A stretch of DNA of 64,000 nt from assembly GCF_018885305.1 (NCBI RefSeq), contig NZ_CP076544.1, positions 868,001-932,000 of the forward strand. Reading direction: 5' to 3'. Numbering within the stretch: the first letter of the stretch is position 1; each line of letters opens with the position of its first letter. The stretch is from Curtobacterium sp. L6-1 (GTDB lineage: Bacteria; Actinomycetota; Actinomycetes; Actinomycetales; Microbacteriaceae). A program made the translations under genes and the position numbers. Shown in pieces: positions 13,689-42,641 of the stretch. The notes below the pieces were generated by a model. The model made no database searches. It was given only the letters and a program-made list of their open reading frames with translations, and was not told where the DNA came from.

Positions 13689-13903
13689 TGGCGATCGTCT
13701 GTCGTCTCGACGAACTGCTGCTGGCGCGCGGGATGACCCTCGTCGACCTCTCCGAACAGGTCGGCGTGAGCACCGTCAACCTCTCGATCCTCAAGAACGG
13801 GCACGCGAAGGCCGTCCGCTTCAGCACCCTCGAAGCGATCTGTGTCGCACTCGACTGCCAGGTCGGGGACCTGCTCGTGCAGGTGCCGGACGCGTCCGCC
13901 TAG
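13688..13903 (+). CDS. Small XRE-family HTH regulator (YozG-like)
   Basis: A 71-residue single-domain DNA-binding protein: RLDELLLARGMTLVDLSEQVGVSTVNLSILKNGHAKAVRF carries the helix-turn-helix, and the end (LEAICVALDCQVGDLLV) is the conserved Cro/CI C-terminal helix pair. Such proteins pair with DUF2975 membrane proteins in many Firmicutes and actinobacteria. It probably regulates its own operon. Translationally coupled to the upstream gene. Confidence 0.88.
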   Translation: MAIVCRLDELLLARGMTLVDLSEQVGVSTVNLSILKNGHAKAVRFSTLEAICVALDCQVGDLLVQVPDASA

Positions 13904-13906
13904 GCT
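13901..13906 (+). promoter_or_regulatory. -10 hexamer (TAGGCT) of a probable leaderless promoter
   Basis: TAGGCT overlaps the stop codon of the HTH gene and begins 12 nt before the amidase GTG at 13913; no ribosome site fits between them. Confidence 0.55.
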
Positions 13907-13912
13907 CGGTGC

Positions 13913-15352
13913 GTGTTCGAACTCCACCACCTGTCGGCGCAGGAACTCTGGGACTGGATCCGCCGCGGTGACGCCACCGCCCGCGAGGTCGCCGACCACT
14001 ACCTGGAGCGGATCGACCGGCTGGACGACGCCCTCGGCGCGTTCGTGACCGTCACGGCCGAGGCCGCCCGCGACCGGGCCGACCACCTCGGGGACCTGGT
14101 GCCGACGTCGCGACCGCTGTGGGGCCTCCCGTCCGCGGACAAGGACCTGACCGACCGGCGTGGCGTGCCCACGCGGTCCGGGAGCACCGCGCTGCCGGTG
14201 ACGCCCGCCCGCGCCGACCACCCACTCGTCGCGGCGCTCGACGCAGCCGGAGCGGTGAGCCTCGGGAAGACGGCGACGCCCGAGTACGGCATGTCGAGCT
14301 CGTCCGAGACCCGGTTCGGCGTCACCCGCAACCCGTACGACACGACACGAGCGCCGGGCGGGTCGTCGAGCGGCGCCGCGGTGGCGGTCGCGGCGGGACT
14401 GCTGCCCGCCGCCGTCGGGTCGGACGGCGGCGGATCGGTCCGGATCCCGGCCGCGGCCACGGGACTGGTGGGTCTGAAGCCGAGCCGTGGGCGGGTGCCG
14501 GCCATGCCCGGACGCACCGGGATCGGCGGACTCGCCGTCGCCGGGCCGCTCACCCGCTCGGTCGCCGACGCGGGGATGCTGCTCGACGCCCTCGTCGCAC
14601 CGACCGGTCTGCCCGGCCGTCCGCCGTACGCGCTCGTCACGCCGGACGTCGGCGACGGGCCCTTCACCGCCGCGGCCGTCCGTGGCGAGGGGCGCTTCGT
14701 GATCGGCCTGCTCGAGGGGTCGCCGTGGGACGAGACCGTCGACGTGGTCGTCGACCCGGCCGCGCGTGCGGCCGTGGACACCGCGCTCCGGGTCCTCGGG
14801 GAGGTCGGGCACGGTGTCGAGGACGTGCGGATGCCGCGCGTGCCGTACGCCGAGCCGTTCCAGGTGGCGTGGGAGTCGTCCGGGGCCGGGATCGTGCGGG
14901 TGCCCGGGATCGACCTGGGGGAACTGACACCTCTGGTCGCCTGGCTCGTCGAACGCGGCCGGGCGCTCACCGCCACGCAGGTGCTCGACGCCATGGCGGG
15001 ACTCGACGCCTTCTCGGTGGAGCTCATCAGCGCGTTCGACCGGTTCGACGCCGTCCTCACCCCGACCCTCGCGCTGACGCCGCGCCCACTCGGTTGGTAC
15101 GGCGACGACCCGGAGGAGGACTTCCGGCGGCAGTGCGCCTACTCGCCGTGGACCTCGATGGCGAACGTGACGGGACTGCCGGCGATCACGCTGCCGGTCG
15201 GGGTCACGGAGGAGGGGCACCCGGACGGGGCCGGGCTGCCCATGGGGGTGCAGCTGATCGGGCGGCCGGGTGGCGAGCGGGTGCTGCTGGCCATCGGGGC
15301 GCAGCTCGAGCGGCGGTTGCGCTGGCAACGGAGGCACCCGGCGGGCTGGTAG
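13913..15352 (+). CDS. Amidase (amidase-signature family)
   Basis: A 479-residue amidase-signature hydrolase. The catalytic Lys is in SADKDLTD near residue 76, the cis-Ser in the Gly/Ser-rich APGGSSSGAA, and the nucleophile Ser in GSDGGGSVRIPAA about 24 residues later, giving a full Ser-cisSer-Lys triad. C-terminal blocks (DAVLTPTLALTP, TGLPAITLPVG) are also standard. It hydrolyses carboxamides; it could be read as GatA-like, but no gatB or gatC is nearby, so a stand-alone amidase is more likely. Confidence 0.92.
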   Translation: MFELHHLSAQELWDWIRRGDATAREVADHYLERIDRLDDALGAFVTVTAEAARDRADHLGDLVPTSRPLWGLPSADKDLTDRRGVPTRSGSTALPVTPARADHPLVAALDAAGAVSLGKTATPEYGMSSSSETRFGVTRNPYDTTRAPGGSSSGAAVAVAAGLLPAAVGSDGGGSVRIPAAATGLVGLKPSRGRVPAMPGRTGIGGLAVAGPLTRSVADAGMLLDALVAPTGLPGRPPYALVTPDVGDGPFTAAAVRGEGRFVIGLLEGSPWDETVDVVVDPAARAAVDTALRVLGEVGHGVEDVRMPRVPYAEPFQVAWESSGAGIVRVPGIDLGELTPLVAWLVERGRALTATQVLDAMAGLDAFSVELISAFDRFDAVLTPTLALTPRPLGWYGDDPEEDFRRQCAYSPWTSMANVTGLPAITLPVGVTEEGHPDGAGLPMGVQLIGRPGGERVLLAIGAQLERRLRWQRRHPAGW

Positions 15353-26149: not shown

Positions 26150-26971
26150 TCAGGAGGCGCGGGCCGCCGTGGAGAGTGCGCCGACGATGCGCAGGATGAC
26201 CCCGAGGTCGTCGACCGCACGGTCCGGGTCGACCGGGGCGAACCCCGTCAGGGCGGCACCGACGAGCTGCCGGCCGGCCGTCGCGGCCTGCACCAGGGCG
26301 ACGAGCGCCGCGCCGTCGAGCCCGAAGGGGACGGGTTCGAGCAGACCGTCGACCTCGCTCGGGTCGAGGACGTCGAGGTCGACGTGGACGAACACCCGCG
26401 TGGCACCGGTGGCCGCGACCGCTGCGCCGAGCCGGTCCGGTGTGGCCGCGTCGACGTCGAGGTGCGTGATCCCGGCGCGCTCGAGGGCGGCTGCCTCGGC
26501 ACCTTCGGTCCCTCGGGTGCCGGCGACGACGACGGAGGTGGCGGGCACCACGGGGAGGTCCGGGAACAGGTCCGCCGGACGGTCGACCAGGAGGCGCAGC
26601 GCAGCCGTCTCGGCGGCCACCGGTTGTGCGCGGTTCAGTGCGCGGTACCCGCTCGACCCGGACAGCCGGACCACCGCCGTGTCGCCGCCGACCAGCACGG
26701 CGGCGCCGAGCACGCTCGACCCGTCACCGCCGATGACGAGCACCGGCTCGGAGGCGACCGCGGCCTCCTGCGCGACGGCGCCGGAGACGGTGAGCACCGA
26801 GGTGTACCGAGCGACCGCGGTGTCCAACCGGTCGCCGGCCCCGGGCGGGACGTCGACGGTCGTCGTCGCCGTGCGGGGGAGGTCCGCCGCCACGGCCGTC
26901 GCTCCGTCCGCCAGCCGCATCGCACGCGACGACGCCGAACCCTGCCACTGACCGACCACGAGGAATCGCAT
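26150..26971 (-). CDS. Arginase/agmatinase-fold protein with missing metal ligands
   Basis: A 273-residue protein with the ureohydrolase order of motifs. The expected GGDHS reads GGDGSS, the expected DAHxD strand reads RLSGSSG, while FVHVDLDVLDPSEVDG keeps the Asp-rich third motif. In true arginases the first two motifs supply His and Asp ligands for two Mn ions, so this protein probably cannot bind both metals. It may be a catalytically dead or re-purposed relative. CAGACT begins 12 nt before the ATG at 26971, suggesting a leaderless message. Confidence 0.75.
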   Translation of the reverse strand: MRFLVVGQWQGSASSRAMRLADGATAVAADLPRTATTTVDVPPGAGDRLDTAVARYTSVLTVSGAVAQEAAVASEPVLVIGGDGSSVLGAAVLVGGDTAVVRLSGSSGYRALNRAQPVAAETAALRLLVDRPADLFPDLPVVPATSVVVAGTRGTEGAEAAALERAGITHLDVDAATPDRLGAAVAATGATRVFVHVDLDVLDPSEVDGLLEPVPFGLDGAALVALVQAATAGRQLVGAALTGFAPVDPDRAVDDLGVILRIVGALSTAARAS

Positions 26972-27030
26972 CCTGTCAGTCTGGCAGCCGGGTCCGACGC
27001 CGTCCGGTGTGCTCGGTGCTCGCAGCGTGG

Positions 27031-27756
27031 CTACGCCGTGGTCGGACCGCCGGACTTCAGTGCCGCGAGCCGCGCCTCGACCTCGGCGTCGCGGCCGACG
27101 TCCTCGAGGCTCTCGAACTGGGCGTCCAGGCTCGACGCCTGCAGTTCCTGCTGGCCGATCACCTTCGCCTCCTCGCGGCGGACCTTCTCCTCGAAGCGCG
27201 CCAGGTCGCTCGTCGGGTCGGTGATGTCGATCGTGCCGATGGCGTCGTTCACCTTCGACTGCGCCTCGGCGGTCTTCGCCCGGGCGACGAGGCTGTTGCG
27301 CTTGGCGCGCAGCTCCTCGAGCTTCTGCTCCATGCCGGCGAGCCCCTGCTTGAGCTTCTCGACCTGCTCGTTCTGCGTGGCGAGCGGTGCAGCGTTGTCC
27401 TTGACCTCCTGCTCGGCGGCGATCTGCTTGCCGATGGCGATCTTGGCGAGGTTGTCGAACTTGTCGGCCTCGGCGGTCTTGCCCTCGGCGCGGTACTTGT
27501 CGGCGGCGGACGAGGCGTTGCCCGCCTTCTGGCCCCACTCCTGCGCGGCGCGGACGTCCTCCTCGTTGTCCTGCTCGAGCAGGCGGAGGTTGCCGATCGT
27601 CTGGGCGATGGCGCTCTTCGCGTCGGCGATGTTGTTCGAGTAGTCGCGGACGAGCTGGTCGAGCATCAGCTGCGGGTCCTCGGCGTCGTCGATGATCTGG
27701 TTGATGTTCGCCCGGACGAGCGAGGAGATCCGGCCGAAGATGGTCTGCTTTGCCAT
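27031..27756 (-). CDS. pspA: PspA/IM30 family membrane-stress protein
   Basis: A 241-residue, almost fully helical protein. The N-terminal amphipathic helix (MAKQTIFGRISSLVRANINQIIDDAEDP) and the long coiled coil with LEELRAKRNSLVARAKTAEAQ are hallmarks of PspA/Vipp1, which coat and stabilise the inner face of a damaged membrane. The ATG at 27756 follows AAAGGGAAAC. It lies 47 bases downstream of the TPM-domain gene on the same strand, a pairing seen in many actinobacteria. Confidence 0.93.
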   Translation of the reverse strand: MAKQTIFGRISSLVRANINQIIDDAEDPQLMLDQLVRDYSNNIADAKSAIAQTIGNLRLLEQDNEEDVRAAQEWGQKAGNASSAADKYRAEGKTAEADKFDNLAKIAIGKQIAAEQEVKDNAAPLATQNEQVEKLKQGLAGMEQKLEELRAKRNSLVARAKTAEAQSKVNDAIGTIDITDPTSDLARFEEKVRREEAKVIGQQELQASSLDAQFESLEDVGRDAEVEARLAALKSGGPTTA

Positions 27757-27803
27757 TGCTGTTTCCCTTTCGTGGATGGACTGCTGGGGTCGAACCGGGT
27801 GGG

Positions 27804-29837
27804 TCAGAAGCGGCCGCCGCCGGAGAAGCCGCCGCCCCCGCCGCCGCCACCTCCGCCGCCGAAGCCGCCGCCCCCACCGAAACCGCCCCCACCGCCGAAG
27901 CCCCCACCGCCGAAGCTGCCGCCGCCGTAGCTCCCGCCACGGCCGCCGAGCAGGCCGCCGAGGACGATGCCGGTCACGAGGCCGCCGAGCTGCGGGCCGC
28001 CACGGCCGCCGCCCGTGCCGCCCAGGCCGCCGCCGGGCCAGCCGGACGTGTCGTCGTTCGCCGCGTCGATGGCGGCTGCCGCGTACTGCTCGGCAGCGCG
28101 CGCCGCCTGCAGCGCGCGCATGGGATCGGAGGTGGCGAGGTCGAGGGCGTCGTCGAGGGCACGTTCGGCCTCGGAGAGTCGGGTGCGGGCGGTCGGGCCG
28201 ACGGCCCCGCGGTGCACCGTGACGTACTCGCGTGCCTGCCCGATGCGGCTCCGGGCGTCGCGCAGTGCGGCGTCCAGCGCCCGGGTCGCGCGCTGCAGCT
28301 GCTCCTCGGCGGTGCGGGCGGTGGCGAGTGCGGCGTCGATGTCGGTGTTCGCCCTGGTGAGGGCGTCGACCGCACCGACGGGGTCACGCGGGTCGACGTC
28401 CGAGCGCAGGACGCGCTGCGCGCGGGCGACGGCGCCGGCGAGGTCCGGCCCACCACGCTGCAGCGCACCGGCGGACGCGATGTCGCCCTCGATGTCGGCT
28501 CGCATGGCCTCGGCCCGGTCGGCCGCCTCGGTGAAGGTGCGCTCGGCCGCGGTCACCGCACCGGTCAGCTGCTGGACCTGTGCGAGGGCGTGCTGCCCGT
28601 CGCGGACGGCGACGACGGCCTCGCCGCGCGCGCCGGCGGCCAGCGCGGCACGCGCGGCGGCAGCGCGGCCGTCCGCGTACTCGAGCACCTGCTCCGCCTG
28701 GTCGACGTTGTCGGTGACCGTCGCGAGTGTCCGACCCGTGTAGGAACCGCGGACCCGGTCGAGCGCGGCACGAGCGTCGGCCAGCGCCGCGGGGGCTGCG
28801 GCGAGTGCGGTCGTCAGCTCGGCGGAGGCGGTGTCGACGCCCTGCTCCAGCGACCGCAGCTGGTCGAACGCCTCGGTCTGGGACTCGATCGCCGCGTGGG
28901 CCTGCTCGCACACGGAGATGATCTGGTGCGCCCAGTCGCTGCGCTGCTGCGGTGTGTCCGGCACCTCGTCGTCGAGCTGCTGCTGCAGGGCGAACGCCTT
29001 CCGCACCTCGCGCTTGGCGACGGCGACGGTCTCGGCGAAGGGCTCCGCGGCGTCGTCGCCGAACTGGGCGGCAGCGAAGCCGACCTCCTGCTCGGCGGTC
29101 CGGAGCTCGTCGTCGATGGTGACGAGGGCCCCGCCGGCGCGGCGCTCGAGGTCGGCGAGCGACGCCTCCTGCTCGCGGCGGGCCGCGGCGGCGCGACGTC
29201 GGTTGCGTGCTCGGATGACGAGCACGGCCACGACGGCGGTCAGCACGGCGACACCGAGCAGGACCCACAGCCAGGTGAGGTCGGCGGGCTGCTGGCTCTG
29301 CTGCAGGCCACCCGCGAAGGCGGTCGCCGCGGCGGCCCACTCGCCCTGCTTGAGCCGCGGGAGCAGGTCGCTGTCGACCGCGTCCTCGACGTCCCGCGAC
29401 GTGATGGCCGTCTCGTTCGTCTGCTGGACGTCGTAGTTCCGTTCGGCGACCGCGACCGACAGCAGGATGCCGTCCGTCTCGATCTGGTTCCGCTCCATGG
29501 TCGCGGTACCCCACGCGGTGTGGTCGGCGGGGTCGGTGAACGAGGGCACGAACACGACGTAGAGCTGGGTCTGTGTCTCCTGGTAGAGCTCCTGCACGGC
29601 CCGCTCGACGTCGGCCTGCTGGGCGTCGGTGAGCGCGTCGGCGTCGTCGAGCACGTAGGCGCTGCCGAGGTCGACCGGTGCGGTGGCCTGCGCCGCGGAG
29701 ACCGGGGCGAGGACGAGGAGCGCCGACACCGCGGCCGCCGCCAGGGCAGCACCGACCCGTGTCGTCCACCGGGTCCCGTCGGTCGCCGTCGTCCGCCCCC
29801 TCGACCCGGCGTCCGTCCTGATCCCGACCGCGCGCAT
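27804..29837 (-). CDS. TPM-domain membrane protein with coiled-coil region and Gly-rich tail
   Basis: A 677-residue protein. A signal segment (about residues 28-52, ending AQATA) precedes an extracytoplasmic TPM_phosphatase domain (YVLDDADALTDAQQADVERAV ... LYVVFVPSF). One membrane helix follows (WLWVLLGVAVLTAVVAVLVI), then about 380 residues of Ala-rich cytoplasmic coiled coil, and a tail of Gly-Gly-Phe repeats ending SGGGRF. TPM domains occur in photosystem repair factors and in stress proteins near PspA. The Gly/Phe tail resembles those of many bacterial TPM (YgcG-like) proteins. ATG 29837 has GGAGG upstream. Confidence 0.85.
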   Translation of the reverse strand: MRAVGIRTDAGSRGRTTATDGTRWTTRVGAALAAAAVSALLVLAPVSAAQATAPVDLGSAYVLDDADALTDAQQADVERAVQELYQETQTQLYVVFVPSFTDPADHTAWGTATMERNQIETDGILLSVAVAERNYDVQQTNETAITSRDVEDAVDSDLLPRLKQGEWAAAATAFAGGLQQSQQPADLTWLWVLLGVAVLTAVVAVLVIRARNRRRAAAARREQEASLADLERRAGGALVTIDDELRTAEQEVGFAAAQFGDDAAEPFAETVAVAKREVRKAFALQQQLDDEVPDTPQQRSDWAHQIISVCEQAHAAIESQTEAFDQLRSLEQGVDTASAELTTALAAAPAALADARAALDRVRGSYTGRTLATVTDNVDQAEQVLEYADGRAAAARAALAAGARGEAVVAVRDGQHALAQVQQLTGAVTAAERTFTEAADRAEAMRADIEGDIASAGALQRGGPDLAGAVARAQRVLRSDVDPRDPVGAVDALTRANTDIDAALATARTAEEQLQRATRALDAALRDARSRIGQAREYVTVHRGAVGPTARTRLSEAERALDDALDLATSDPMRALQAARAAEQYAAAAIDAANDDTSGWPGGGLGGTGGGRGGPQLGGLVTGIVLGGLLGGRGGSYGGGSFGGGGFGGGGGFGGGGGFGGGGGGGGGGGFSGGGRF

Positions 29838-30301: not shown

Positions 30302-31009
30302 GTGGGTGATCCGTGCCTCCAGGCCGTCTCGGTCCGCGTCATGCGGCCCGGCGCGTCCCGCGACGCCGACCGGGAGGCCCTCCGCGCGTTCGTCGCCGAG
30401 GTCACCGACACGGACCCCGCGCTGGTGCGCGTCGTCCGTCGCTGCCCGCACTGCGGGGCGGCCGACCACGGCCGACCGTCGGCGCTCGTCGCCGACCGGC
30501 AGGTCCCGGTCAGCCTCGCCCGGACTTCCGGTGCGGTCGTCCTCGCCGTCGGACCGGGACCACTCGGCGTCGACGTCGAACGGCCGTCGCGGGTGACCGC
30601 CGCCGCACTCGACGTCTTCACGCCCGGCGAACGCGCCCGCGCCGCGGCCGAGGTGCTCCCTGCCGCGGGCGACGCACACCGCACGGCGTGCTGGGCGGTC
30701 AAGGAGTCGGTGCTCAAGCGGGACGGCCGTGGGCTCCGGGTCGACCCCGTGCTGGTGGAGGCGGTCCTCGGCCCGCTCCGGAACGGCGGCGACGGCGACG
30801 GCCACCGCGACGGCGACAGCGACGGCGGCGACGACCGCGACCACGATGGCGACCACGACCACGCACGGTTCGCCGGTGACGAACAGCCCGTCACCGTCCT
30901 GCTGCTCGACGACGACCTCGTGCTCGCGGTGGCCGCCGGCGGTGTCCCCGTGCACGTGCAGGACGTCCGTGGTCCCGCCGCCGCGCGGGTCCGTCCGCAG
31001 CAGCGCTAG
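30302..31009 (+). CDS. 4'-phosphopantetheinyl transferase superfamily protein
   Basis: A 235-residue enzyme of the Sfp/AcpT type that would load the phosphopantetheine arm of CoA onto a carrier-protein serine. GVDVE (about residue 88) and WAVKES (about residue 130) are the Mg2+/CoA-binding signature (GxD...WxxKE). CPHCGAADHGRP near residue 48 is a conserved feature of actinobacterial members. Around residues 160-190 there is an unusual insert made almost only of Gly, Asp, His and Arg. It lies next to, and convergent with, an M1 peptidase/NRPS operon whose carrier domain it may activate. Its stop overlaps the convergent peptidase stop (CTAG). Confidence 0.82.
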   Translation: MGDPCLQAVSVRVMRPGASRDADREALRAFVAEVTDTDPALVRVVRRCPHCGAADHGRPSALVADRQVPVSLARTSGAVVLAVGPGPLGVDVERPSRVTAAALDVFTPGERARAAAEVLPAAGDAHRTACWAVKESVLKRDGRGLRVDPVLVEAVLGPLRNGGDGDGHRDGDSDGGDDRDHDGDHDHARFAGDEQPVTVLLLDDDLVLAVAAGGVPVHVQDVRGPAAARVRPQQR

Positions 31010-32322
31010 GGCAGTTCCGGGACGCCCGGTTCGTCGATCCAGGGCCCGAGCAGGAGCAGCACGGCGTCCGGTCCGGTGCCCGCGGCCTCGGCGAAGGACG
31101 CGACGACGTCGGGGGAGCTGACGGTGCCGTGCCGGTACCGCGTCGTGACGATCCGCAGTCCCGCCGTGAACGCCGCGTCGCCGATCGTCCGGCGGAGGGC
31201 GTGCAGGGCGAGGGCGCCGCGCTTGTAGACCCGGTCGTCGAACATGTCCCGCGCGCCGGGATCGGCGACGACGAGGTCCTGCGGTTGCTGCAGCAGGCCC
31301 GACCGGTACGAGCGGGCGAGGTCGTCGGCGGTCGGCCCGCCGCGGTGCTCGGACCAGAGCCACTCGGCGTAGCAGGCGAAGCCCTCGTGCAGCCAGATGT
31401 CCCGCCACCGGCCGAGGGTCACGGAGTTGCCGAACCACTGGTGCGCGAGCTCGTGGGCGATGAGCCGGTCGGTGCCGTGCGCGCCGTCGACGTGGTTCCG
31501 TCCGAAGACGGCGAGCCCGTGCGCCTCGAGCGGGATCTCCAGCTCGTCGTCGGTCACCACGACGCCGTACTCGGCGAACGGGTACGGGCCGAACCGGTCG
31601 GCGAACAGGGCGATCATCTCCGGGACCTGCCCGAAGTCGGTCTTCGCCGCTGCGGTGAGGTCGGCCGGGTGGTGCAGCGTGACGGGGACGTCCCCGCCGC
31701 GGAGCTTCGTCGTCCGGTAGCGGCCGATCTGCACCGTGGCCAGGTAGGTCGCCATCGGTTCGGTGACGGCGAAGGTCCAGCGGGTCCCGCGGGCGGTGCG
31801 GTCGCGCCCGAGGAGCTCGCCGTTCGCGACGACCTCGTACCCGGCCTCGCAGGTGAGCTCGATCCGGTACGTGGCCTTGTCGTCGGGGCGGTCGTTGCAG
31901 GGGAACCAGGACGGCGCACCGACCGGCTGGCTGGCGACGATGACGCCGTCGGTCAGTTCCTCCCAGCCGAGCGTGCCCCAGGGGCTCCGGAGCGGTCGCG
32001 GGGTGCCGCGGTAGCGGACGTGCACGGCGAAGTCGGCGCCCGCGGGGATCGGGGCGGCCGGCGTGACGGTGGTCTTGTGGGTGCCGACCGAGACCTTCTT
32101 CGCGCGGACGCCGTCGACGTCGACCCGGTCGACGGAGAGCCCGTGCAGGTCGAGGACGACCTTGTCGAGCGCTTCGACGGCCGTCGCGCTGATCGTGGCG
32201 GTCGCGTCGAGCCGGTTCGTGGCGACCCGGTAGTCCAGGTGCAGGTCGTGGTGGCGGCTCGTCCAGCGCCGGTCGCCGCTGTGCGGGGTGTACGGGTCGG
32301 CGGCGGGGTCGGTCTGCTTCAC
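31006..32322 (-). CDS. M1 family zinc metallopeptidase (aminopeptidase)
   Basis: A 438-residue member of family M1. The zinc site is HELAHQWFGN with the third ligand in WLHEGFACYAE 19 residues on. The family exopeptidase motif normally GAMEN is not evident: the aligned region reads LEAHGLAVF, so substrate-amine recognition may differ. It has no C-terminal ERAP domain, hence the short length. It begins with GTG 32322, 9 bases after the stop of the Pls-like NRPS, so it is cotranscribed. A cytosolic enzyme trimming or degrading the polymer made by that NRPS is plausible; known epsilon-polylysine-degrading enzymes are Zn aminopeptidases. Confidence 0.88.
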   Translation of the reverse strand: MKQTDPAADPYTPHSGDRRWTSRHHDLHLDYRVATNRLDATATISATAVEALDKVVLDLHGLSVDRVDVDGVRAKKVSVGTHKTTVTPAAPIPAGADFAVHVRYRGTPRPLRSPWGTLGWEELTDGVIVASQPVGAPSWFPCNDRPDDKATYRIELTCEAGYEVVANGELLGRDRTARGTRWTFAVTEPMATYLATVQIGRYRTTKLRGGDVPVTLHHPADLTAAAKTDFGQVPEMIALFADRFGPYPFAEYGVVVTDDELEIPLEAHGLAVFGRNHVDGAHGTDRLIAHELAHQWFGNSVTLGRWRDIWLHEGFACYAEWLWSEHRGGPTADDLARSYRSGLLQQPQDLVVADPGARDMFDDRVYKRGALALHALRRTIGDAAFTAGLRIVTTRYRHGTVSSPDVVASFAEAAGTGPDAVLLLLGPWIDEPGVPELP

Positions 32323-32330
32323 GGTGCCGG

Positions 32331-35300
32331 TCAGTCTGCCACGGCGCCGACGGGGCTCGGGGTCTCCGCGCGCTTCCCGTCCACCGGGTCCGGGGTGGTC
32401 CGCCACGGCGGGTGCTCCCACGGGCCGATGGGGTTGCCGGCCCACAGCGTCCCGCCGGGCACCTGCTCGCCGCGCATCACGAGGGACGCCGGGCCGACGG
32501 TCGCGCCGGGGCCGATGCCGGCGGCGGGCAGCACCACGCCGTGCGGACCGAGCGTCGCGCCGGCGTCCAGCGTGACCGTGTCGAGCTGCATCACGCGGTC
32601 GTGGAACAGGTGGGTCTGCACGACGGTGCCGCGGGCGATCGTCGCGCCGTCGCCGATGGTGACGAGGTCGGCCTCGGGCAGCCAGTACGTCTCACACCAG
32701 ACCCCGCGGCCGATCGTCGCCCCGAGGCTCCGGAGCCAGGCGGCGAGTGCCGGCGTGCCGATGGCCTGCTCGGCGAACCACGGCCGTGCGACGGTCTCCA
32801 CGAAGGTGTCCTGCACCTCGTTGCGCCAGACGAACGACGACCACAGCGGGTGCTCGGTGGCGGTGATCCGGCCGACGAAGCCCCACTTCGCGAGCGTCGA
32901 CACCGCGGCGGCCACGGCTCCGGCGACGATGAGCACCGGGCCGGCGAGCAGGACCGTCCAGCCGATGCCGACGGTGTCCCAGAGCGCGAGGAAGGTCACG
33001 GCGACGCCGAGCCCGATCGCCGCGGACACCATCGGTGCCACGAGCCGCAGCAGCTCCCACGCACCGCGGGCGACCTTGAGGCGGCGCGGCGGACGGAAGG
33101 TGCGCTCCTCGTCGAACTGCGTGGCGGCGCGGCGGAGCCGGACCGGGGGACTGCCGAGCCACGAGGAGCCGCGCTTGGCCTTCTTCGGCACGGCGGACAG
33201 CACCGCGACGAGGGCCTCGCGGGGGACCGAGCGCCCGGCGCCGGTCATGCCGGAGTTGCCGAGGAACGCCCGCCGACCGACCTTCGAGCGACCGATCTTC
33301 ACGCGGCCGCCGCCGAGCTCGTAGGTGGCGACCATCGTGTCGTCGGCGAGGAACGCGCCGGACGCGATCTGCGTCAGCGCGGGGATCAGCAGGACGGTGG
33401 AGATCTCGGTGTCCCGCCCGACCTTCGCGCCGAGCAGCCGGAGCCACAGCGGCGTCACGAGGCTCGCGTACAGCGGGAACAGCAGCGTGCGGGCGGCGTC
33501 GAGGATCCGTTCGGTGCTCCACGCCTGCCAGCCGGTCCGGGAGCGCACCGGGTGCCGACCCTCGGTGAGCCCGAGGCCGAGCAGGCGGACGGCGGCGACC
33601 ACGAGGGCGGCGTAGACCAGCCCGGCGACGACCGTGGTGAGGGGGACGGCGAGCAGGGCGGGTCCGACGGCGGCGCCGAGGGACGCGGGACGGCCGACCA
33701 CGGCGGCGGCGACCGCGAGCCCGGCCGCGACGCCGACGACGGGCAGCCCGGCGACCGCGACCGAGCCGGCCCCGTACGCGAGCAGCCAGCGCTTCGGGGA
33801 GGCGGGGCGCGCCTCCCGGCCGTGGCGTGCGGACCCGACGCGTTCGGCGGGGGAGCCCGCCCACCGTTCCCCGGCGGGGACGGCTCCCGCGACGGCGGAG
33901 CCGGCCTCGACCTCGGCACCGTCGCCGACCCGCGCACCGGGCATGAGGGTGGAGCGGCTGTGCACGACCGCGTCGGCGCCGACGTGCACCGGGCCGAGCC
34001 GGAAGACGTCGCCGTCGACCCAGTGCCCGGCGAGGTCCACCTCGGGTTCGATCGAGGCGCGCTTGCCGACGGTGAGCATGCCGGTGACCGGCGGCAGCGT
34101 GTGCAGGTCGACGTCGCGGCCGATCGTCGCCCCGAGGGCCCGGGCGTAGTAGCTGATCCAGGGCGCCCCGGCGGTCGAGGGTCCGTCGACGGCCTCCGCG
34201 ATGCGCTCGGCGAGCCAGACCCGCACGTGCACGGAGCCGCCGCGCGGGTGGTCCCCGGGGCGGACGCCGGCGAGCAGGAGCCGGGCGGCGACGACCGTGA
34301 TCGTCATCTTCCCCGCCGGGGTGACGAAGAGCAGGAGGGCGAGCACGAGGACCGGCCAGGGCAGCACCGGCAGGAACGGCATCGTGGTGGCGTGCAGGAC
34401 CGCGGCGACCAGGGCCGTCCAGCTGAGCAGCCGGAGCCCGCGGAGCACCTGGAGCGGCAGGCCGAGCAGCGTCAGGAGCAGCCCGGTCCGCGGCGGCACC
34501 GGTGCCACGTCGCGGGAGGCTGCGGCGACCGGCCCGGACTCGTCGAGCGCTGCCGCGAGCGCGCCGATGCGGGGGTGGTCGTAGACGTCGGCGACGGTCG
34601 TGGTCGGGTAGCGCTCGCGGATCGCCGACACGAGCTGTGCGGCCGTCAGGGAGCCGCCGCCGTGCGCGAAGAAGTCGTCGTCGACGTCGGCGACCGGCAC
34701 ACCGAGGATCGCGGACCAGCGTTCCGCGATCCACGCGACGGTGGGCGGCAGGTCGGCGCCGACGGCACCCTCGAGCGGCCAGGGCAGGGCGGCGCGGTCG
34801 ACCTTGCCGGACGTCCGGGTCGGCAGGTGGTCGACGACGGCCAGGAGCGGCACGAGCGCGGCGGGCAGTTCACGGCGGAGGCGGTCGTTCGCGGCGGCGG
34901 TGTCGATGGTCGCGCCGGCGACGGGCGCGACGTAGCCGACGAGGACCTGGTTGCCGGCGGGGGTGCGCTGCACGACCGCGGCCCCGCCGGCGACGTCGTC
35001 GAGGGCCTGGAGCGCGGCGTCGATCTCGCCGAGCTCGATGCGGCGGCCGCCGAGCTTCACCTGGTCGTCGGCACGTCCCTGGAACACGAGGCCCTCGGGG
35101 TCGTAACGGACGAGGTCGCCGCTCCGGTAGGCCCGGTCCCAGCCGAGCTCGGGGAACGGCGCGTACTTCTCGGCGTCCTTGGCGGGGTCGAGGTAGCGGC
35201 CGAGCCCGACGCCGCCGATGACGAGTTCGCCGACCTGCCCGGGGGCGACACGCTGCCCCTCGGCGTCGACGACCGCGAGGTCCCAGCCGTCGAGCGGCAG

Positions 35301-36260
35301 GCCGATCCGGACGGGGCTGCTGCCGTCGAGCAGGGCTCCGCAGGCGACGACGGTGGCCTCGGTCGGGCCGTAGGTGTTCCACACCTCGCGGTCGCGGGAG
35401 GCGATGCGGGCGGCGAGTTCGGGCGGGCAGGCCTCGCCGCCGAAGATGACCAGGCGGACGGACTCGAGCGCGTCGTCGGGCCAGAGCGCGGCGAGGGTGG
35501 GGACGGTGGACACGACGGTGATGCCGTGCGCGATGAGCCACGGGCCGAGGTCGACGCCGCTCTTCACCAGCGAGCGCGGGGCGGGCACGAGGCAGGCGCC
35601 GTGGCCCCAGGCGAGCCACATCTCCTCGCAGGAGGCGTCGAACGCGACGCTGAGGCCGGCGAGCACCCGGTCGCCGGGGCCGAGCGGCGCGCCCTGCAGG
35701 AACATCCGTGCCTCGGCGTCGACGAAGGCCGCGGCGGAGCGGTGGGTGACGGCGACGCCCTTGGGGACCCCGGTCGAGCCGGAGGTGAAGATGATCCACG
35801 CGTCGTCGTCGGTCGTCGGTGCCTCGGCGCGCGCGGCGGGGTCGACGACGGGCAGCGTGGTGCCGTCGCGGTCGGCGAGGACCCCGCCGGCGCCGATCAC
35901 GCCGACGACCCCCGCTTCGCCGAAGACGAGGGTGGCGCGTTCCTCGGGGTCGTCGGCGTCGACGGGGACGTAGGCGGCTCCCGCGGCGAGGACGGCGAGG
36001 ATCGACACGGACAGGTCGCGGCCGCCCGAGGGGACGCGGACGCCGACCCGGTCACCGCGGCGGACGCCGTGCCGGGCGAGGTCGTGGGCGCGTCCGTGCA
36101 CGAGGTCGAGGAGGGCGCGGTAGTCGAGCGGTCCCTCGGGGGTCTCGAGCGCGAGGGCGTCGGGGTGCGCCTCAGCGGTGGCGGTGAGCACGTCGAGCAG
36201 GGTCCGGGCCGGTGCGGCCAGGGCACCGCGGTCGAGTTCCTGCTGCGTGGGGTTCGTCAC
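32331..36260 (-). CDS. Pls/PosA-type non-ribosomal peptide synthetase (poly-amino-acid synthetase)
   Basis: A 1309-residue single-module NRPS with the layout of epsilon-poly-L-lysine synthetase (about 1319 residues in Streptomyces albulus). Residues ~15-490 are the adenylation domain: FTSGSTGVPKG, FDASCEEMW, NTYGPTEAT, YRSGDLVRY, GRADDQVKLGGRRIELGEID, TSGKVDRAAL. Residues ~505-575 are the carrier domain with phosphopantetheine Ser537 (HGGGSLTA). Six membrane segments follow in pairs (about 593-650, 826-895, 1071-1125), separating three soluble domains (~651-820, ~900-1065, ~1130-1280) rich in hexapeptide turns such as LGATIGRDV. In Pls these three domains catalyse chain growth. No thioesterase or classical condensation domain is present. 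GTG 36260 has TAGGAT beginning 14 nt upstream. Confidence 0.88.
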   Translation of the reverse strand: MTNPTQQELDRGALAAPARTLLDVLTATAEAHPDALALETPEGPLDYRALLDLVHGRAHDLARHGVRRGDRVGVRVPSGGRDLSVSILAVLAAGAAYVPVDADDPEERATLVFGEAGVVGVIGAGGVLADRDGTTLPVVDPAARAEAPTTDDDAWIIFTSGSTGVPKGVAVTHRSAAAFVDAEARMFLQGAPLGPGDRVLAGLSVAFDASCEEMWLAWGHGACLVPAPRSLVKSGVDLGPWLIAHGITVVSTVPTLAALWPDDALESVRLVIFGGEACPPELAARIASRDREVWNTYGPTEATVVACGALLDGSSPVRIGLPLDGWDLAVVDAEGQRVAPGQVGELVIGGVGLGRYLDPAKDAEKYAPFPELGWDRAYRSGDLVRYDPEGLVFQGRADDQVKLGGRRIELGEIDAALQALDDVAGGAAVVQRTPAGNQVLVGYVAPVAGATIDTAAANDRLRRELPAALVPLLAVVDHLPTRTSGKVDRAALPWPLEGAVGADLPPTVAWIAERWSAILGVPVADVDDDFFAHGGGSLTAAQLVSAIRERYPTTTVADVYDHPRIGALAAALDESGPVAAASRDVAPVPPRTGLLLTLLGLPLQVLRGLRLLSWTALVAAVLHATTMPFLPVLPWPVLVLALLLFVTPAGKMTITVVAARLLLAGVRPGDHPRGGSVHVRVWLAERIAEAVDGPSTAGAPWISYYARALGATIGRDVDLHTLPPVTGMLTVGKRASIEPEVDLAGHWVDGDVFRLGPVHVGADAVVHSRSTLMPGARVGDGAEVEAGSAVAGAVPAGERWAGSPAERVGSARHGREARPASPKRWLLAYGAGSVAVAGLPVVGVAAGLAVAAAVVGRPASLGAAVGPALLAVPLTTVVAGLVYAALVVAAVRLLGLGLTEGRHPVRSRTGWQAWSTERILDAARTLLFPLYASLVTPLWLRLLGAKVGRDTEISTVLLIPALTQIASGAFLADDTMVATYELGGGRVKIGRSKVGRRAFLGNSGMTGAGRSVPREALVAVLSAVPKKAKRGSSWLGSPPVRLRRAATQFDEERTFRPPRRLKVARGAWELLRLVAPMVSAAIGLGVAVTFLALWDTVGIGWTVLLAGPVLIVAGAVAAAVSTLAKWGFVGRITATEHPLWSSFVWRNEVQDTFVETVARPWFAEQAIGTPALAAWLRSLGATIGRGVWCETYWLPEADLVTIGDGATIARGTVVQTHLFHDRVMQLDTVTLDAGATLGPHGVVLPAAGIGPGATVGPASLVMRGEQVPGGTLWAGNPIGPWEHPPWRTTPDPVDGKRAETPSPVGAVAD

Positions 36261-36444: not shown

Positions 36445-36505
36445 CAGCTTGCGCGGGGGATGTTCCGCAGCTTGCGTGGGGGATGTTCCGCAGCTTGCGC
36501 GGAGA
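36445..36505. repeat. 23-bp tandem repeat beside the tRNA gene
   Basis: CAGCTTGCG(C/T)GGGGGATGTTCCG at 36445-36467 and 36468-36490, then a partial third unit to 36505. The array ends 9 bases from the 3' end of the tRNA-Arg gene (which reads leftwards), in the 253-base non-coding gap after the NRPS promoter. Confidence 0.85.
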
Positions 36506-36513
36506 TGCAACAG

Positions 36514-36585
36514 TGCCCCCAGGAGGATTCGAACCTCCGCCCCTGCCTCCGGAGGGCAGTGCTCTATCCCCTGAGCTATGGGGGC
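36514..36585 (-). tRNA. tRNA-Arg (anticodon CCG)
   Basis: On the minus strand a full cloverleaf: acceptor GCCCCCA/TGGGGGC, D arm GCTCAGGGGATAGAGC, anticodon arm CTGCC-CTCCGGA-GGCAG with anticodon CCG (reads CGG), T arm GGAGG-TTCGAAT-CCTCC, discriminator A. The CCA end is not encoded. Length 72 nt. In a high-GC genome the CGG codon is common. Confidence 0.95.
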
Positions 36586-37384: not shown

Positions 37385-39049
37385 GTGACTCCTGTCGAAC
37401 TCTCCGCTGCCTACCTGTCGATCCTCACGGGCATCGTCGAGCGCCGAGGCGCTGCCGACACGGTGACGGTCCAGGAGTCGCACGCGGCCCTCGAACGCCC
37501 GAAGAACCGGGCACACGGGGACTGGGCGTCGAACGCGGCCATGCAGCTCGCGAAGCGGCTCGGCACGAACCCGCGCGAGCTGGCGACCGAGATCGCCGGC
37601 GAGCTGACCGAGCTCGACGGCGTCGCCTCGGTCGACGTGGCCGGGCCCGGGTTCATCAACATCACGCTCGAGGCCGCTGCGGCGGGCGAGGTCGCCCGCA
37701 CCGTGGTCGAGCAGGGGACGGCCTACGGGCACGGCGACCTGTACGACGGGGTCCGCATCGACCTCGAGTTCGTGTCGGCGAACCCGACCGGGCCGATCCA
37801 CATGGGCGGTGTCCGCTGGGCCGCGGTGGGCGACAGCCTGGCCCGCGTGTTCCAGGCGCAGGGCGCGCTCGTGACGCGTGAGTACTACTTCAACGACCAC
37901 GGCAGCCAGATCGACCGCTTCGCTCGCTCGCTCGTCGCTTCGGCGCTGGGTGAGCCCACGCCGGAGGACGGCTACGGCGGCGCCTACATCGGCGAGATCG
38001 CCGCCCGCGTCATCGCGACGTACGACGGCGACGTCGCCGACCTGCCGCGGGACGAGGCCCAGGAGCTGTTCCGGCGCGAGGGCGTCGAGTTCATGTTCGC
38101 CGACATCAAGCACTCGCTGCACGAGTTCGGCGTCGACTTCGACGTGTACTTCCACGAGAACGAGCTGCACGAGTCGAAGGCGGTCGAGCGCGCGATCGAG
38201 CGGCTCCGCGAGAACGGCCACATGTACGAGGCCGAGGGTGCGCAGTGGCTCCGGACGACCGACTTCGGTGACGACCGCGACCGCGTCGTGATCAAGTCCG
38301 ACGGTGAGCCCGCGTACATCGCCGGCGACCTGGCGTACTACCTCGACAAGCGCGAGCGCGGCTTCGAGCGGAACCTCATCATGCTCGGCGCGGACCACCA
38401 CGGCTACGTCGGCCGCATGATGGCGATGTGCGCCGCGTTCGGCGACGAGCCGGGCAAGAACCTCGAGATCCTCATCGGGCAGATGGTCAACCTGCTCAAG
38501 GATGGCGAGCCGATGCGGATGTCGAAGCGCAACGGCACGATCGTCACGATGGAGGACCTGGTCGACGCGGTCGGTGTGGACGCGGGGCGGTACTCGCTCG
38601 TGCGCTTCGCCAGCGACACCGCGATCGACATCGACCTCGACCTGCTCGTCAAGCGGACGAACGACAACCCGGTCTTCACCGTGCAGTACGCCCACGCCCG
38701 CACGCAGTCGGTCGCGCGCAACGCCGCGGCCGCCGGTGTCGACCGGTCGGTGTTCGACGCGTCCCTGCTCACGCACGAGACCGAGAGCGCCCTGCTCGGC
38801 GCCCTCGCCGAGTACCCGCGGGTGCTGCGTCAGGCGGCCGAGCTCCGCGAGCCGCACCGCATCGCGCGCTTCATCGAGCAGCTCGCCGGGCTGTACCACC
38901 GCTGGTACGACTCCTGCCGGGTCACGCCGCTCGGCGACGAGCCGGTGACCGACCTGCACCGCACCCGCCTCTGGGTGAACGACGCCACCGGGCAGGTCGT
39001 CCGCAACGGCCTGGGCCTGCTCGGCGTCAGCGCACCCGACCGGATGTGA
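37385..39049 (+). CDS. argS: Arginyl-tRNA synthetase
   Basis: A 554-residue class I synthetase that charges tRNA-Arg. The HIGH-type motif is [11 protein letters not shown], near residue 136, and the KMSKS-type loop is [10 protein letters not shown]. The N-terminal additional domain and the C-terminal DALR anticodon-binding domain ([14 protein letters not shown] ... [10 protein letters not shown]) are complete. GTG 37385 gives the usual length. It lies one gene away from a tRNA-Arg and starts the conserved argS-lysA-hom-thr order. The stop overlaps the next start by 4 bases. Confidence 0.97.
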
Positions 39050-39816
39050 CGGTGTCGTCCGCACCCACCACCGGCCGCCCCCGGAAGCGTCGCGGTCGCA
39101 GGTTCGCGATCGTCCTGGTCGTCGTGCTGCTCGTCGTCGCCGCGCTCGTCGTGGTGGCCGAGTTCGTCCTGCGCGGCGTCGTCGACCGCACGGTCGCCGA
39201 GCAGGTCGAGCAGTCGCTGCCGGAGGGCACGACCGGGCAGGTGGACGCCCACGTCGACGGCGTCGTCATCCCGCAGCTCGTGCGGGGCACGCTCGACCGG
39301 GTCGACATCACCTCGGACCGGCTCACGGTGGACGGCATCCCGCTGGCGGCGGACGTGACCGCGCACGACGTCCCGGTGGACGGCGCCGGCGACGTGCGGG
39401 ACGTCGACGGCACCGTCCGGCTCGCGGCGGGCGCGGTCAAGGACCTGTCGAAGTACTCCCCGCTGTTCGAGCGGGTCCGCCTGATCGACGGCGGCGTCGA
39501 GCTGCGCGGCAGTGCCTCCGTCCTCGGCTTCCGCATCGGGTACGCCGCCGACGGCTCGGTCGCGGTCCAGCGGGACGGCCGCGGTGTCACGATCACGCCG
39601 GAGACGGTGCGCATCACGAACTCCTCGCTCGGTCTCAAGGTGGACGACATCCCGGGCGTCTCCGACGTGCCGGTGCCGGTGTGCACGGCTCAGTTCCTGC
39701 CGGAGCAGCTCCGCATCCGTTCGCTCGACCTCACGAAGTCGGCCGCGGCGGTCCGGATCACGGCCGACCGCCTGCCCCTCGACGAGGCGGGCCTGCGCAC
39801 CACCGGTCGCTGCTGA
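39046..39816 (+). CDS. LmeA-like (DUF2993) phospholipid-binding protein
   Basis: A 256-residue protein with a basic N-terminus ([10 protein letters not shown]), one uncleaved-looking membrane anchor ([27 protein letters not shown]) and an extracytoplasmic DUF2993 domain. The repeated pattern of alternating beta strands ([36 protein letters not shown]) matches LmeA, which binds phospholipids and affects lipomannan growth in mycobacteria. Function here is unproven. The GTG at 39046 overlaps the argS stop (GTGA); a second GTG at 39052 is possible. Confidence 0.8.
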
Positions 39817-39845
39817 GCGGTGCTCGTCCACCGGTCGCGTCACAT

Positions 39846-39864
39846 GGCCGGGAGGCGCGTGGCC
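39846..39864 (+). repeat. Half site of the GGACGGGAGGCGCG repeat
   Basis: GGCCGGGAGGCGCGTGGCC shares 18 of 19 positions with the left arm and loop start of the hairpin at 36661-36679. It lies between the LmeA-like gene and lysA. Confidence 0.55.
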
Positions 39865-39870
39865 GCCGGA

Positions 39871-39876
39871 TAGGAT
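39871..39876 (+). promoter_or_regulatory. -10 hexamer (TAGGAT) before lysA
   Basis: TAGGAT begins 13 nt before the GTG at 39884, with no ribosome site, so lysA is probably read from a leaderless transcript. Confidence 0.5.
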
Positions 39877-39883
39877 CGGGCCC

Positions 39884-41305
39884 GTGAGCGAGAACCCCCT
39901 TGCGCCGCCGCGGCTGCGGTTCCCGACGGACGCCTCCGACCTGGTGGGACGGATCTGGCCCGCGTCGGCGACGCGGACCGACGAGGGCACGTTGGCCGTC
40001 GGTGGTGTCGCCGCCGACGACCTGGTCGCCCGCTTCGGGTCGCCGCTCTACGTCGTCGACGAGCGTGACGTCCAGTCCCGTGCCGTCCGCGTGCGCACCG
40101 CCTTCACCGACGCCTTCGCGCGCATCGGGACCCGGGCGCACGTCTACTACGCGGCGAAGGCCTTCTGGACGACGCACGTCGCGCGCTGGATGGCCGACGC
40201 CGACCTCCGCCTCGACGTCTGCACGATGGGGGAGATGGCGGTCGCCCTGGCCGCGGGCGTCGACCCCGCGCTGATGGGCTTCCACGGCAACGACAAGTCC
40301 GACGCCGAGATCGAGCGCGCGGTGTCGATCGGCCTCGGCACGATCGTGCTCGACAGCCACGAGGAGATCGGTCGCGTGGCCCGGGCCGCCGCAGACGCCG
40401 GTGTGGTCCAGCGTGTCCGGATCCGGATCAACAGCGGGGTGCACGCCTCGACGCACGAGTTCCTGGCGACGGCGCGCGAGGACCAGAAGTTCGGCATCCC
40501 GCTGTCCGAGGCCGTGCGGGCCGCGACGGCCGTGCGCGCCGAACCGTCGCTCGCGTTCGTCGGGCTGCACTCGCACATCGGCTCGCAGATCTTCGACGAC
40601 AGTGGGTTCCGCGAGGCCGCCCGTCGGCTCATGGACGTGCACGCCACGCTCGTCGCCGACGGCCCGGTGCCCGAGCTCAACCTCGGCGGCGGCTGGGGCA
40701 TCGACTACACCGAGGCAGACTCCGCCCTCGCGCCCGAGGACGTCGCCGACGCCCTCGCCGCGATCATCGAGGACGAGTGCTCGTCCCGCGGCATCCCGGT
40801 GCCCGAGATCGCGGTGGAGCCCGGTCGGTACATCGTCGGCCCCGCGGGCGTCACGCTCTACCGTGTCGGCACGATCAAGCCCGTCACCGTCGAGACCGGC
40901 GCGGGCGGCACGGCGACGCGCACGTACGTGTCGGTCGACGGCGGCATGAGCGACAACGTCCGCCCGGCCCTGTACGGCGCCGACTACACCGCCCGGCTCG
41001 CCCGGACGTCGGACGCCGACCCGGTGCTCACCCGCGTCGTCGGGAAGCACTGCGAGAGCGGCGACGTCGTCGTCCACGACGAGTACCTGCCCGGCGACGT
41101 GCAGCGCGGGGACCTCCTAGCCGTCGCCGCGACGGGTGCCTACTGCTGGAGCCTGGCGAGCAACTACAACCACGTCGGCCGCCCGCCGGTCGTCGCGGTC
41201 GCCGACGGGGCAGCCCGTATCCTCGTGCGGGGCGAGACGGTCGACGACCTCCTCGCCCGCGACACCGGCGTCGCCCCGGTGCCCGACACCGGTGCCGACC
41301 GCTGA
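39884..41305 (+). CDS. lysA: Diaminopimelate decarboxylase
   Basis: A 473-residue PLP enzyme of the alanine-racemase fold that converts meso-diaminopimelate to L-lysine. The PLP lysine is in VYYAAKAF near residue 90, HSHIGSQIF and LNLGGGWGIDY bind the cofactor phosphate, VEPGRYIV and the C-terminal CESGDV (active-site Cys) complete the site. It precedes hom-thrC-thrB, grouping aspartate-derived amino acid genes. Lysine made here would also be the likely monomer of the Pls-like synthetase upstream, a link that is only inference. Confidence 0.97.
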   Translation: MSENPLAPPRLRFPTDASDLVGRIWPASATRTDEGTLAVGGVAADDLVARFGSPLYVVDERDVQSRAVRVRTAFTDAFARIGTRAHVYYAAKAFWTTHVARWMADADLRLDVCTMGEMAVALAAGVDPALMGFHGNDKSDAEIERAVSIGLGTIVLDSHEEIGRVARAAADAGVVQRVRIRINSGVHASTHEFLATAREDQKFGIPLSEAVRAATAVRAEPSLAFVGLHSHIGSQIFDDSGFREAARRLMDVHATLVADGPVPELNLGGGWGIDYTEADSALAPEDVADALAAIIEDECSSRGIPVPEIAVEPGRYIVGPAGVTLYRVGTIKPVTVETGAGGTATRTYVSVDGGMSDNVRPALYGADYTARLARTSDADPVLTRVVGKHCESGDVVVHDEYLPGDVQRGDLLAVAATGAYCWSLASNYNHVGRPPVVAVADGAARILVRGETVDDLLARDTGVAPVPDTGADR

Positions 41306-41333
41306 CCACCCGACCCGGAGAGACCCCCACCAG

Positions 41334-42641
41334 ATGATCGAATACCGCAACGTCCGCGTCGCGCTGCTCGGAGCCGGCTCGGTCGGCTCCCAGGTCGCCC
41401 GACTCCTGCTCGAGCACGGACCGGAACTCGCCACGCGTGCCGGCGCCGGTCTGGAGCTGGTCGGGATCGCCGTGCGCGACGTCGACGCACCGCGGGACGT
41501 CGACCTGCCGCGCGAGCTCTTCACGACGGACGCCGAGTCGTTGATCCTGGAGGCCGACATCGTCGTCGAGCTCATCGGTGGGATCGAGCCGGCACGAACC
41601 CTCGTGTTGCAGGCGCTGCAGTCCGGCGCGGACGTCGTCACGGGCAACAAGGCACTCCTCGCCACGCACGGCCCGGAGCTGTTCGGCGCTGCCGAGCAGG
41701 TCGGCGCACAGCTCTACTACGAGGCCGCCGTGGCCGGTGCGATCCCGATCATCCGGCCGCTGCACGACTCGCTCGCGGGGGACCGCATCGAGCGGATCAT
41801 GGGCATCGTCAACGGCACCACGAACTTCATCCTCGACCTGATGGACCGCGAGGGCGCGACGTTCGCCGACGCGCTGGCGACGGCGACCGAGCTCGGGTAC
41901 GCCGAGGCCGACCCGACCGCCGACGTCGAGGGGTACGACGCCGCGCAGAAGGCCGCCATCCTGGCCTCGCTCGCGTTCCACACCTCGGTCCCGCTGGCCG
42001 CCGTGCACCGCGAGGGCATCACGTCGGTGACCATCGAGCAGGTCCGTGCCGCGCGCAAGGCCGGCTACGTCGTGAAGATCCTCGCCACGTGCGAGCGCCT
42101 CACCGACGCCGAGGGCCGCGAGGGCGTCAGCGCCCGTGTCTACCCGGCGCTCGTCCCCGAGTCGCACCCCCTCGCGAGCGTGCACGGCGCGAAGAACGCC
42201 GTCTTCGTCGAGGCCGAGGCGGCCGGCGACCTCATGTTCTACGGAGCCGGTGCCGGCGGCGTCGAGACCGCGTCGGCCGTCCTCGGTGACCTGGTGTCCG
42301 CCGCCCGTCGGCACGTCATCGGCGGTCCCGGCGTGGCGGAGTCGACCCAGTCGGCGCTGCCGGTCTTCCCGATCGGCACGGTCCGCACCCGGTACCAGAT
42401 CTCGTTGCACGTCTCGGACGCCCCGGGCGTGCTCTCGACGGTCGCCGGCGTCCTGGCGCACCACGGCGTCAGCGTCGAGACCGTCGAGCAGACCACCACG
42501 GGCGCCGCCGAGGGCACGGCCACGCTCGTGATCGGCACGCACCTCGCCCGCGAGGCCGACCTGGCCGACACCGTCGCCGCGCTCCGCGGCGAGGACGTCG
42601 TCCGTGACGTGACCAGCGTCCTGCGCGTCGTCGGCGTCTGA
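41334..42641 (+). CDS. hom: Homoserine dehydrogenase
   Basis: A 435-residue enzyme reducing aspartate semialdehyde to homoserine. The N-terminal NAD(P) motif is [12 protein letters not shown], the catalytic core has [28 protein letters not shown] and [13 protein letters not shown], and the C-terminal ~85 residues are an ACT domain ([25 protein letters not shown]), which usually confers feedback inhibition by threonine. It follows lysA by 28 bases with GGAGAGA as ribosome site. Confidence 0.97.

Follow-up and report, generated by a model that had tools for sequence, protein, structure and literature searches.

The window analysed here, a stretch of 64,000 nucleotides from Curtobacterium sp. 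L6-1 (contig NZ_CP076544.1, positions 868,001 to 932,000; the genome is a single contig of 3.40 Mb), contains three adjacent genes: pls, which codes for a homologue of epsilon-poly-L-lysine synthetase, a gene for an M1 zinc metallopeptidase directly behind it, and a convergent gene for a phosphopantetheinyl transferase (Table 1). With a probability of about 0.9, we consider the locus to be a system for making epsilon-poly-L-lysine, an antimicrobial homopolymer of lysine. Chance can be excluded, because of the family scores given below and because the pair of pls and M1 genes is kept in 80 of 80 loci compared. Systems of this type are already published and are widespread in Actinobacteria, of which the locus is a standard, ordinary member; two elements may be new, both modest, namely, in Micrococcales, a conserved third gene for a dedicated transferase and, in the synthetase, an explicit candidate catalytic residue.

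An earlier note, made from the DNA letters of this stretch, had described a 1309-residue protein with adenylation and carrier domains, three soluble domains, six membrane segments and no thioesterase, and this architecture was confirmed by Pfam together with an AlphaFold model. At E <= 0.001, Pfam places an AMP-binding domain at residues 27-353 and a PP-binding domain at 510-572 of Pls and finds no further domain, condensation and thioesterase domains both being absent, while the trace of a hexapeptide repeat at residues 758-791 falls just under its cut-off. The note had read the domain order as that of Pls and proposed a TIGR02353 search as a check. Indeed, this NCBIfam family (“Pls/PosA family non-ribosomal peptide synthetase”) covers residues 597-1278, that is the C-terminal half, and the match scores 688 bits where the cut-off is 423.1; in the genome-wide search Pls scored 690 bits. 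The outcome that the note had named as refuting, a C-terminal half unlike that of Pls, thus did not arise, and its main reading is supported.

The adenylation domain points to lysine as the substrate. Among the PDB sequence matches listed for Pls, the nearest is 7WEW, the adenylation domain of an epsilon-poly-L-lysine synthase (E 4e-188), which we take to be that of Streptomyces albulus; 325 of the 484 aligned residues are identical (67.1%). The pocket residues, at what we take to be the ten Stachelhaus positions in PheA numbering (Pls 208, 209, 212, 251, 272, 274, 296, 304, 305 and 486), read DAESIGTVVK, the same as in 7WEW. This string is present in 120 of 122 aligned rows including the query, or 119 of 121 relatives, in an alignment that omits L001 and L085, the copies from the window itself, and in which some genomes may duplicate species; the two rows without it, L121 and L123, align over the C-terminal part only. 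According to the part of PMC10522769 considered here, Patel and Gulick propose that Ala at pocket position 2 goes with lysine, Met with ornithine and Phe with diaminopropionate or diaminobutyrate, Ala being the proposed chain-length determinant for lysine. Thus, as judged from the sequence, activation of L-lysine by this domain is strongly supported and, since the pocket is that of a lysine-activating Pls, the cationic homopolymer claimed in the earlier note is expected to be specifically epsilon-poly-L-lysine. As side observations, the adenylation domains of the relatives L117-L120, from large genomes, are 66-68% identical to 7WEW, scarcely nearer to it than that of the window, so that these relatives do not serve as reference Pls here, and the frames of L121 and L123 (919 and 860 residues, likewise from large genomes), 28-30% identical to Pls, consist of its C-terminal body and a carrier-like stretch, with the adenylation domain unaligned.

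The peptidase gene begins, as had been claimed, close downstream, its GTG lying 8 nt past the pls stop codon in an operon-like arrangement. The product contains the zinc site HExxH-x18-E (HELAH at 290-294 and Glu313), with HE[LI][AS]H found in 121 of 121 aligned M1 rows, and its nearest solved relatives are the M1 zinc metalloproteases of PDB entries 6a8z and 6iff (E about 1e-49, residues 7-415). A scan of contigs gave at least 583 confirmed pls relatives, and the loci counted here are the best 80, all of them actinobacterial by title. Each of the 80 has an M1 homologue behind pls in the same orientation; the start projected for it is no more than 150 nt from the pls stop in 74 loci, lies 0.6-2.1 kb past that stop in five and, in L057, falls 631 nt ahead of it. 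The enzyme resembles in this respect PldII of S. albulus, which we take to be an M1 peptidase as well. In that species, pldII overlaps pls by 4 bp and forms one operon with it (PMC4361855), and PldII is reported, in the portion of PMC9223678 available, to be translationally coupled and self-protective. The trimming or detoxifying role suggested for the peptidase in the earlier note agrees with the function published for PldII in these two papers.

TIGR02353 was found (E <= 1e-30) in 87 of 199 sampled genomes of the family and in 10 of 197 of the phylum sample; the best tblastn segment of Pls against its nearest Curtobacterium relatives, L003 and L012, stands at 92%. Pls homologues are described in Microbacterium and other coryneforms (PMC8117764). 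Agrococcus and Microbacterium are reported to carry epsilon-poly-lysine clusters, and Leifsonia appears in a comparison figure (PMC12067966); the latter paper also describes a new Curtobacterium, but the passages considered here name the clusters only for other genera. A search of open-licence PMC text returned no report of poly-lysine in Curtobacterium, which now joins the potential producers.

The transferase gene is convergent, as had been noted, and its stop overlaps that of the peptidase gene by 4 bp. The product matches PF01648 with 35 bits (cut-off 25) and carries GVDVE at 89 and WAVKE at 131, corresponding to the motifs GxDxE and WxxKE of phosphopantetheinyl transferases. The strict pattern fits 18 of 31 transferases compared, the others being variants; several from Microbacterium read WxxVEA or WxxIEA instead of WxxKEA, whereas the window's copy is canonical. 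Of the 80 loci, 30 have a match to the transferase profile in convergent orientation past the peptidase gene; all 30 are among the 35 that we assign to Micrococcales from record titles, and none of the other 45 has one. One of the five Micrococcales misses, L061, sits on a contig ending about 0.5 kb behind the peptidase, and one of the 45, L027, ends at the peptidase, so that it could not reveal a transferase. In the genome of strain L6-1, PF01648 matches two places (E <= 0.01), the pls-linked transferase and a frame whose 128 residues fit AcpS in size, and PF00550 (PP-binding) likewise matches two (E <= 0.001), one in Pls and the other in a small protein of the fatty-acid cluster which, from its position between fabH- and fabF-like genes, is read as acpP. 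Because there is just one other PF01648 place and one other carrier domain, the linked transferase very probably primes Pls, as the earlier note had supposed. Family genomes were also compared: at least two PF01648 places occur in 76 of 87 with pls and in 16 of 112 without it, the extra places having been located relative to pls for part of the genomes. Within the 18 genera holding both kinds, a comparison made to lessen the effect of shared ancestry, the counts are 23 of 29 with pls against 6 of 28 without, and a single one of 20,000 within-genus shuffles was as extreme. These within-genus counts support, without proving, a dedicated priming enzyme. No published link between pls and a transferase was found in open-licence PMC text, and the gene names a likely priming enzyme for the Pls synthetases of Micrococcales. 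Apart from this, a short tandem repeat (6- to 18-base units, positions 30783-30868) within the transferase gene encodes an Asp/His/Gly-rich insert that is absent from the transferases of the closest relatives, L003 and L012.

The C-terminal half of Pls was modelled with AlphaFold2 (residues 500-1283, 77 sequences; mean predicted local distance difference test score 89.9, predicted template-modelling score 0.90). In the model, the carrier domain is followed by three units, each made of a helix pair and a domain of short strands in a beta-helix pattern; the paired helical regions are at about 590-662, 824-895 and 1059-1129, and hydropathy peaks in the same three regions, with weaker signals at 953-971 and within the adenylation domain. 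Across 120 sequences (the 122 rows minus the two paralogues, L121 and L123), conservation reaches 97% or more at 79 positions between residues 560 and 1309 that hold a polar or charged residue, Cys, Tyr or Trp; 23 of them, including one in the carrier domain (Y560), are also kept in both paralogues, and the sole histidine among these is His1217, in the VVQTHLFHDR string of C3. The C3 profile matches hexapeptide acyltransferases and gamma-carbonic anhydrases in the PDB (best E 3.5e-9), and in its alignment with the acetyltransferase 8vr6 His1217 coincides with the histidine of a THD string. In beta-helix acetyltransferases, a histidine serves as the base. A C3 site around His1217, Gln1215 and Asp1221 may thus act in condensation, a proposal that we hold tentatively, at somewhat less than even odds; His1217 offers a direct test of how an isopeptide bond is formed without a condensation domain. 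The 50 rows listed by Foldseek are mostly single beta-helix acyltransferases, with template-modelling scores by query length of 0.08-0.14, and the VIA-align rows were taken up by the carrier domain, the membrane part being barely probed there. The PDB sequence matches listed include no full-length Pls chain, no cryo-electron microscopy work on poly-L-lysine synthetase was found in open-licence PMC text, and the paper on PosA states that the structure of the C-terminal membrane domain still needs experimental support (PMC10522769, as far as its text was available).

Table 1. Features of the pls locus and its upstream neighbours, in window coordinates.
Feature	Position	Strand	Basis
pls, epsilon-poly-L-lysine synthetase homologue, A-T-(2TM-C1)-(2TM-C2)-(2TM-C3) (A, adenylation; T, thiolation; TM, transmembrane segment; C1-C3, beta-helix domains), 1309 residues, GTG start	32331..36260	-	Pfam, TIGR02353, pocket, AlphaFold model
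Adenylation domain, residues 1-498	34767..36260	-	Identity with 7WEW; pocket
Carrier (thiolation) domain, residues 505-580	34521..34748	-	PP-binding
Pantetheine attachment, Ser537	34650-34652	-	Ser in 122/122 aligned rows
C1, first left-handed beta-helix domain, about residues 663-822	33795..34274	-	Model; hexapeptide matches
C2, second beta-helix domain, about residues 896-1057	33090..33575	-	Model
C3, third beta-helix domain, about residues 1130-1283, with VVQTHLFHDR	32412..32873	-	Model, conservation, profile
Candidate catalytic His1217 in C3	32610-32612	-	Conservation
M1 zinc metallopeptidase, PldII-like by position and family, 438 residues	31006..32322	-	Family match, position, conserved pairing
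Phosphopantetheinyl transferase (PF01648), convergent, 235 residues, Asp/His/Gly-rich insert	30302..31009	+	Pfam, motifs
tRNA-Arg(CCG), just upstream of pls	36513-36585	-	
argS, lysA and homoserine dehydrogenase gene, beyond tRNA-Arg	37385-42641	+	

In the mechanism that we propose, the linked transferase would move phosphopantetheine from coenzyme A onto Ser537, and the adenylation domain, as its pocket indicates, would activate L-lysine and, as in other members of the family, load it onto the carrier as a thioester. The membrane-bound C1-C2-C3 part would form a pseudo-threefold assembly of acyltransferase-like beta-helices which, as known for the family, would link lysines one after another, carboxyl carbon to epsilon-amine, without a thioesterase; the M1 peptidase may then trim or degrade the polymer in the way that PldII does in S. 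albulus, serving self-protection or turnover. A more specific version of this scheme for Micrococcales, to which we lean a little less than to the C3 site considered separately, would have a three-gene module with a dedicated transferase, a single site of the acyltransferase type in C3 (His1217, Gln1215, Asp1221), whose counterparts in C1 and C2 have been lost, and a cytosolic M1 enzyme that limits the polymer inside the cell rather than outside.

Several observations weigh against an epsilon-poly-L-lysine system of this kind, or against one of its parts. The M1 peptidase shows neither a signal peptide nor a membrane segment by hydropathy (maximal mean of a 19-residue window 1.31), whereas PldII is stated to lie outside the membrane (PMC9223678, in the part available). 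The peptidase also lacks GAMEN, the exopeptidase motif of M1 enzymes, and has IPLEAHG in its place; the ten commonest strings at this position, covering 109 of 121 rows, all fit [IV]P[LIV]E[AS][QH]. The PDB entry that the C3 profile matches best, 3ixc, has Asp where Pls has His1217. Moreover, 11 of the 87 pls-bearing family genomes have a single PF01648 place (E <= 0.01), so a second transferase is either not universal or sometimes too divergent to be detected. As for the product, it speaks in favour of the system that a Corynebacterium Pls, 51% identical to the Streptomyces enzyme, made epsilon-poly-lysine in S. coelicolor; against it, a culture of C. variabile contained no detectable polymer or Pls protein, and C. 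glutamicum expressing the C. variabile gene made the protein and no polymer (PMC8117764, as far as its passages go). Such loci may therefore be silent or need further conditions, and the Curtobacterium locus could be an intact remnant that yields no polymer in nature. That one of the five sampled Curtobacterium genomes (G149) has no TIGR02353 match and a single PF01648 place would suit such a remnant; nevertheless, the frame and the checked motifs are intact in the window and the pls-M1 pair persists in nine Curtobacterium contigs, and we regard a silent locus as unlikely.

A different polymer is the least probable alternative. The Pls/PosA family also holds synthetases for polymers of ornithine, diaminobutyrate, diaminopropionate and beta-lysine (PMC10522769), and the enzyme could in principle make one of these; however, all ten pocket residues match 7WEW, the Ala at position 2 is that of Pls and not the Met of PosA or the Phe of the diaminopropionate and diaminobutyrate enzymes, and the code for beta-lysine, DGESISVVNK, differs. 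A peptidase partner moreover marks the context of pls and not the contexts of the three further synthetases with which the available part of PMC8117764 compares it. It is also improbable, if slightly less so, that the transferase serves another function and stands beside pls by accident. Its absence from the 45 non-Micrococcales loci and the second PF01648 place in 16 of 112 family genomes devoid of pls would be expected in that case, but the scarcity of other carrier domains in the genome, the convergent position retained in 30 of 35 Micrococcales loci and the variation of the number of PF01648 places with pls within genera all argue for a transferase that serves Pls.

In the surroundings of the epsilon-poly-L-lysine locus, lysA, coding for diaminopimelate decarboxylase, starts 3.6 kb from pls, past the tRNA-Arg gene, a small gene and argS. 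A general functional link between lysA and pls was considered and rejected: among the 34 searched of the 87 pls-bearing family genomes, lysA lies within 20 kb of pls in four of four from Curtobacterium and in none of 30 others (in two, pls and lysA are on separate contigs, and the nearest distances in the rest are about 38 and 84 kb); in the Plantibacter locus L032, lysA is near pls, on the other side. A tRNA scan of 26 loci places tRNA-Arg(CCG) upstream of pls (0.2-6 kb) in nine of nine from Curtobacterium and on the other side in Plantibacter L032, and finds none in the remaining 16; its recurrence beside pls in Curtobacterium suggests an insertion hotspot at this tRNA gene. Between this tRNA gene and pls, a 23-bp unit is repeated 2.5 times (36445-36502), and the two copies of its 20-base core are the only ones in the genome (at most two mismatches). 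Beyond the transferase gene lie arginase-family, PspA/IM30 and TPM-domain genes (26150-29837, minus strand), and putative TPM- and PspA-like frames occur likewise behind the transferase in L010. In four other Curtobacterium loci (L004, L005, L007 and L009, at about 13230-14340), putative methionine-aminopeptidase-like and small helix-turn-helix-like frames stand between the M1 and transferase genes.

Compared with known systems, the locus shares with those of S. albulus and C. variabile, the latter having a reported pls-peptidase pair (PMC8117764), the domain order, the six membrane segments, the lack of condensation and thioesterase domains and the downstream peptidase, but it differs from both in the linked phosphopantetheinyl transferase. 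The comparison with S. albulus Pls concerns the adenylation domain: the pocket is identical to that of 7WEW, while the domain as a whole is 67% identical. The two genes, which overlap in S. albulus (PMC4361855), are separated here by the 8-nt gap. The peptidase is like PldII as a putative zinc aminopeptidase directly behind pls, a likeness of position and family, and unlike it in having no secretion signal. PosA, the delta-poly-L-ornithine synthetase of Acinetobacter baumannii, belongs to the same family and has, in its predicted model, a membrane domain with three beta-helices (PMC10522769); it differs in having Met218 at pocket position 2, where the Curtobacterium enzyme has Ala209, and posA is described as a single-gene operon, unlike the pls locus with its peptidase and transferase genes.

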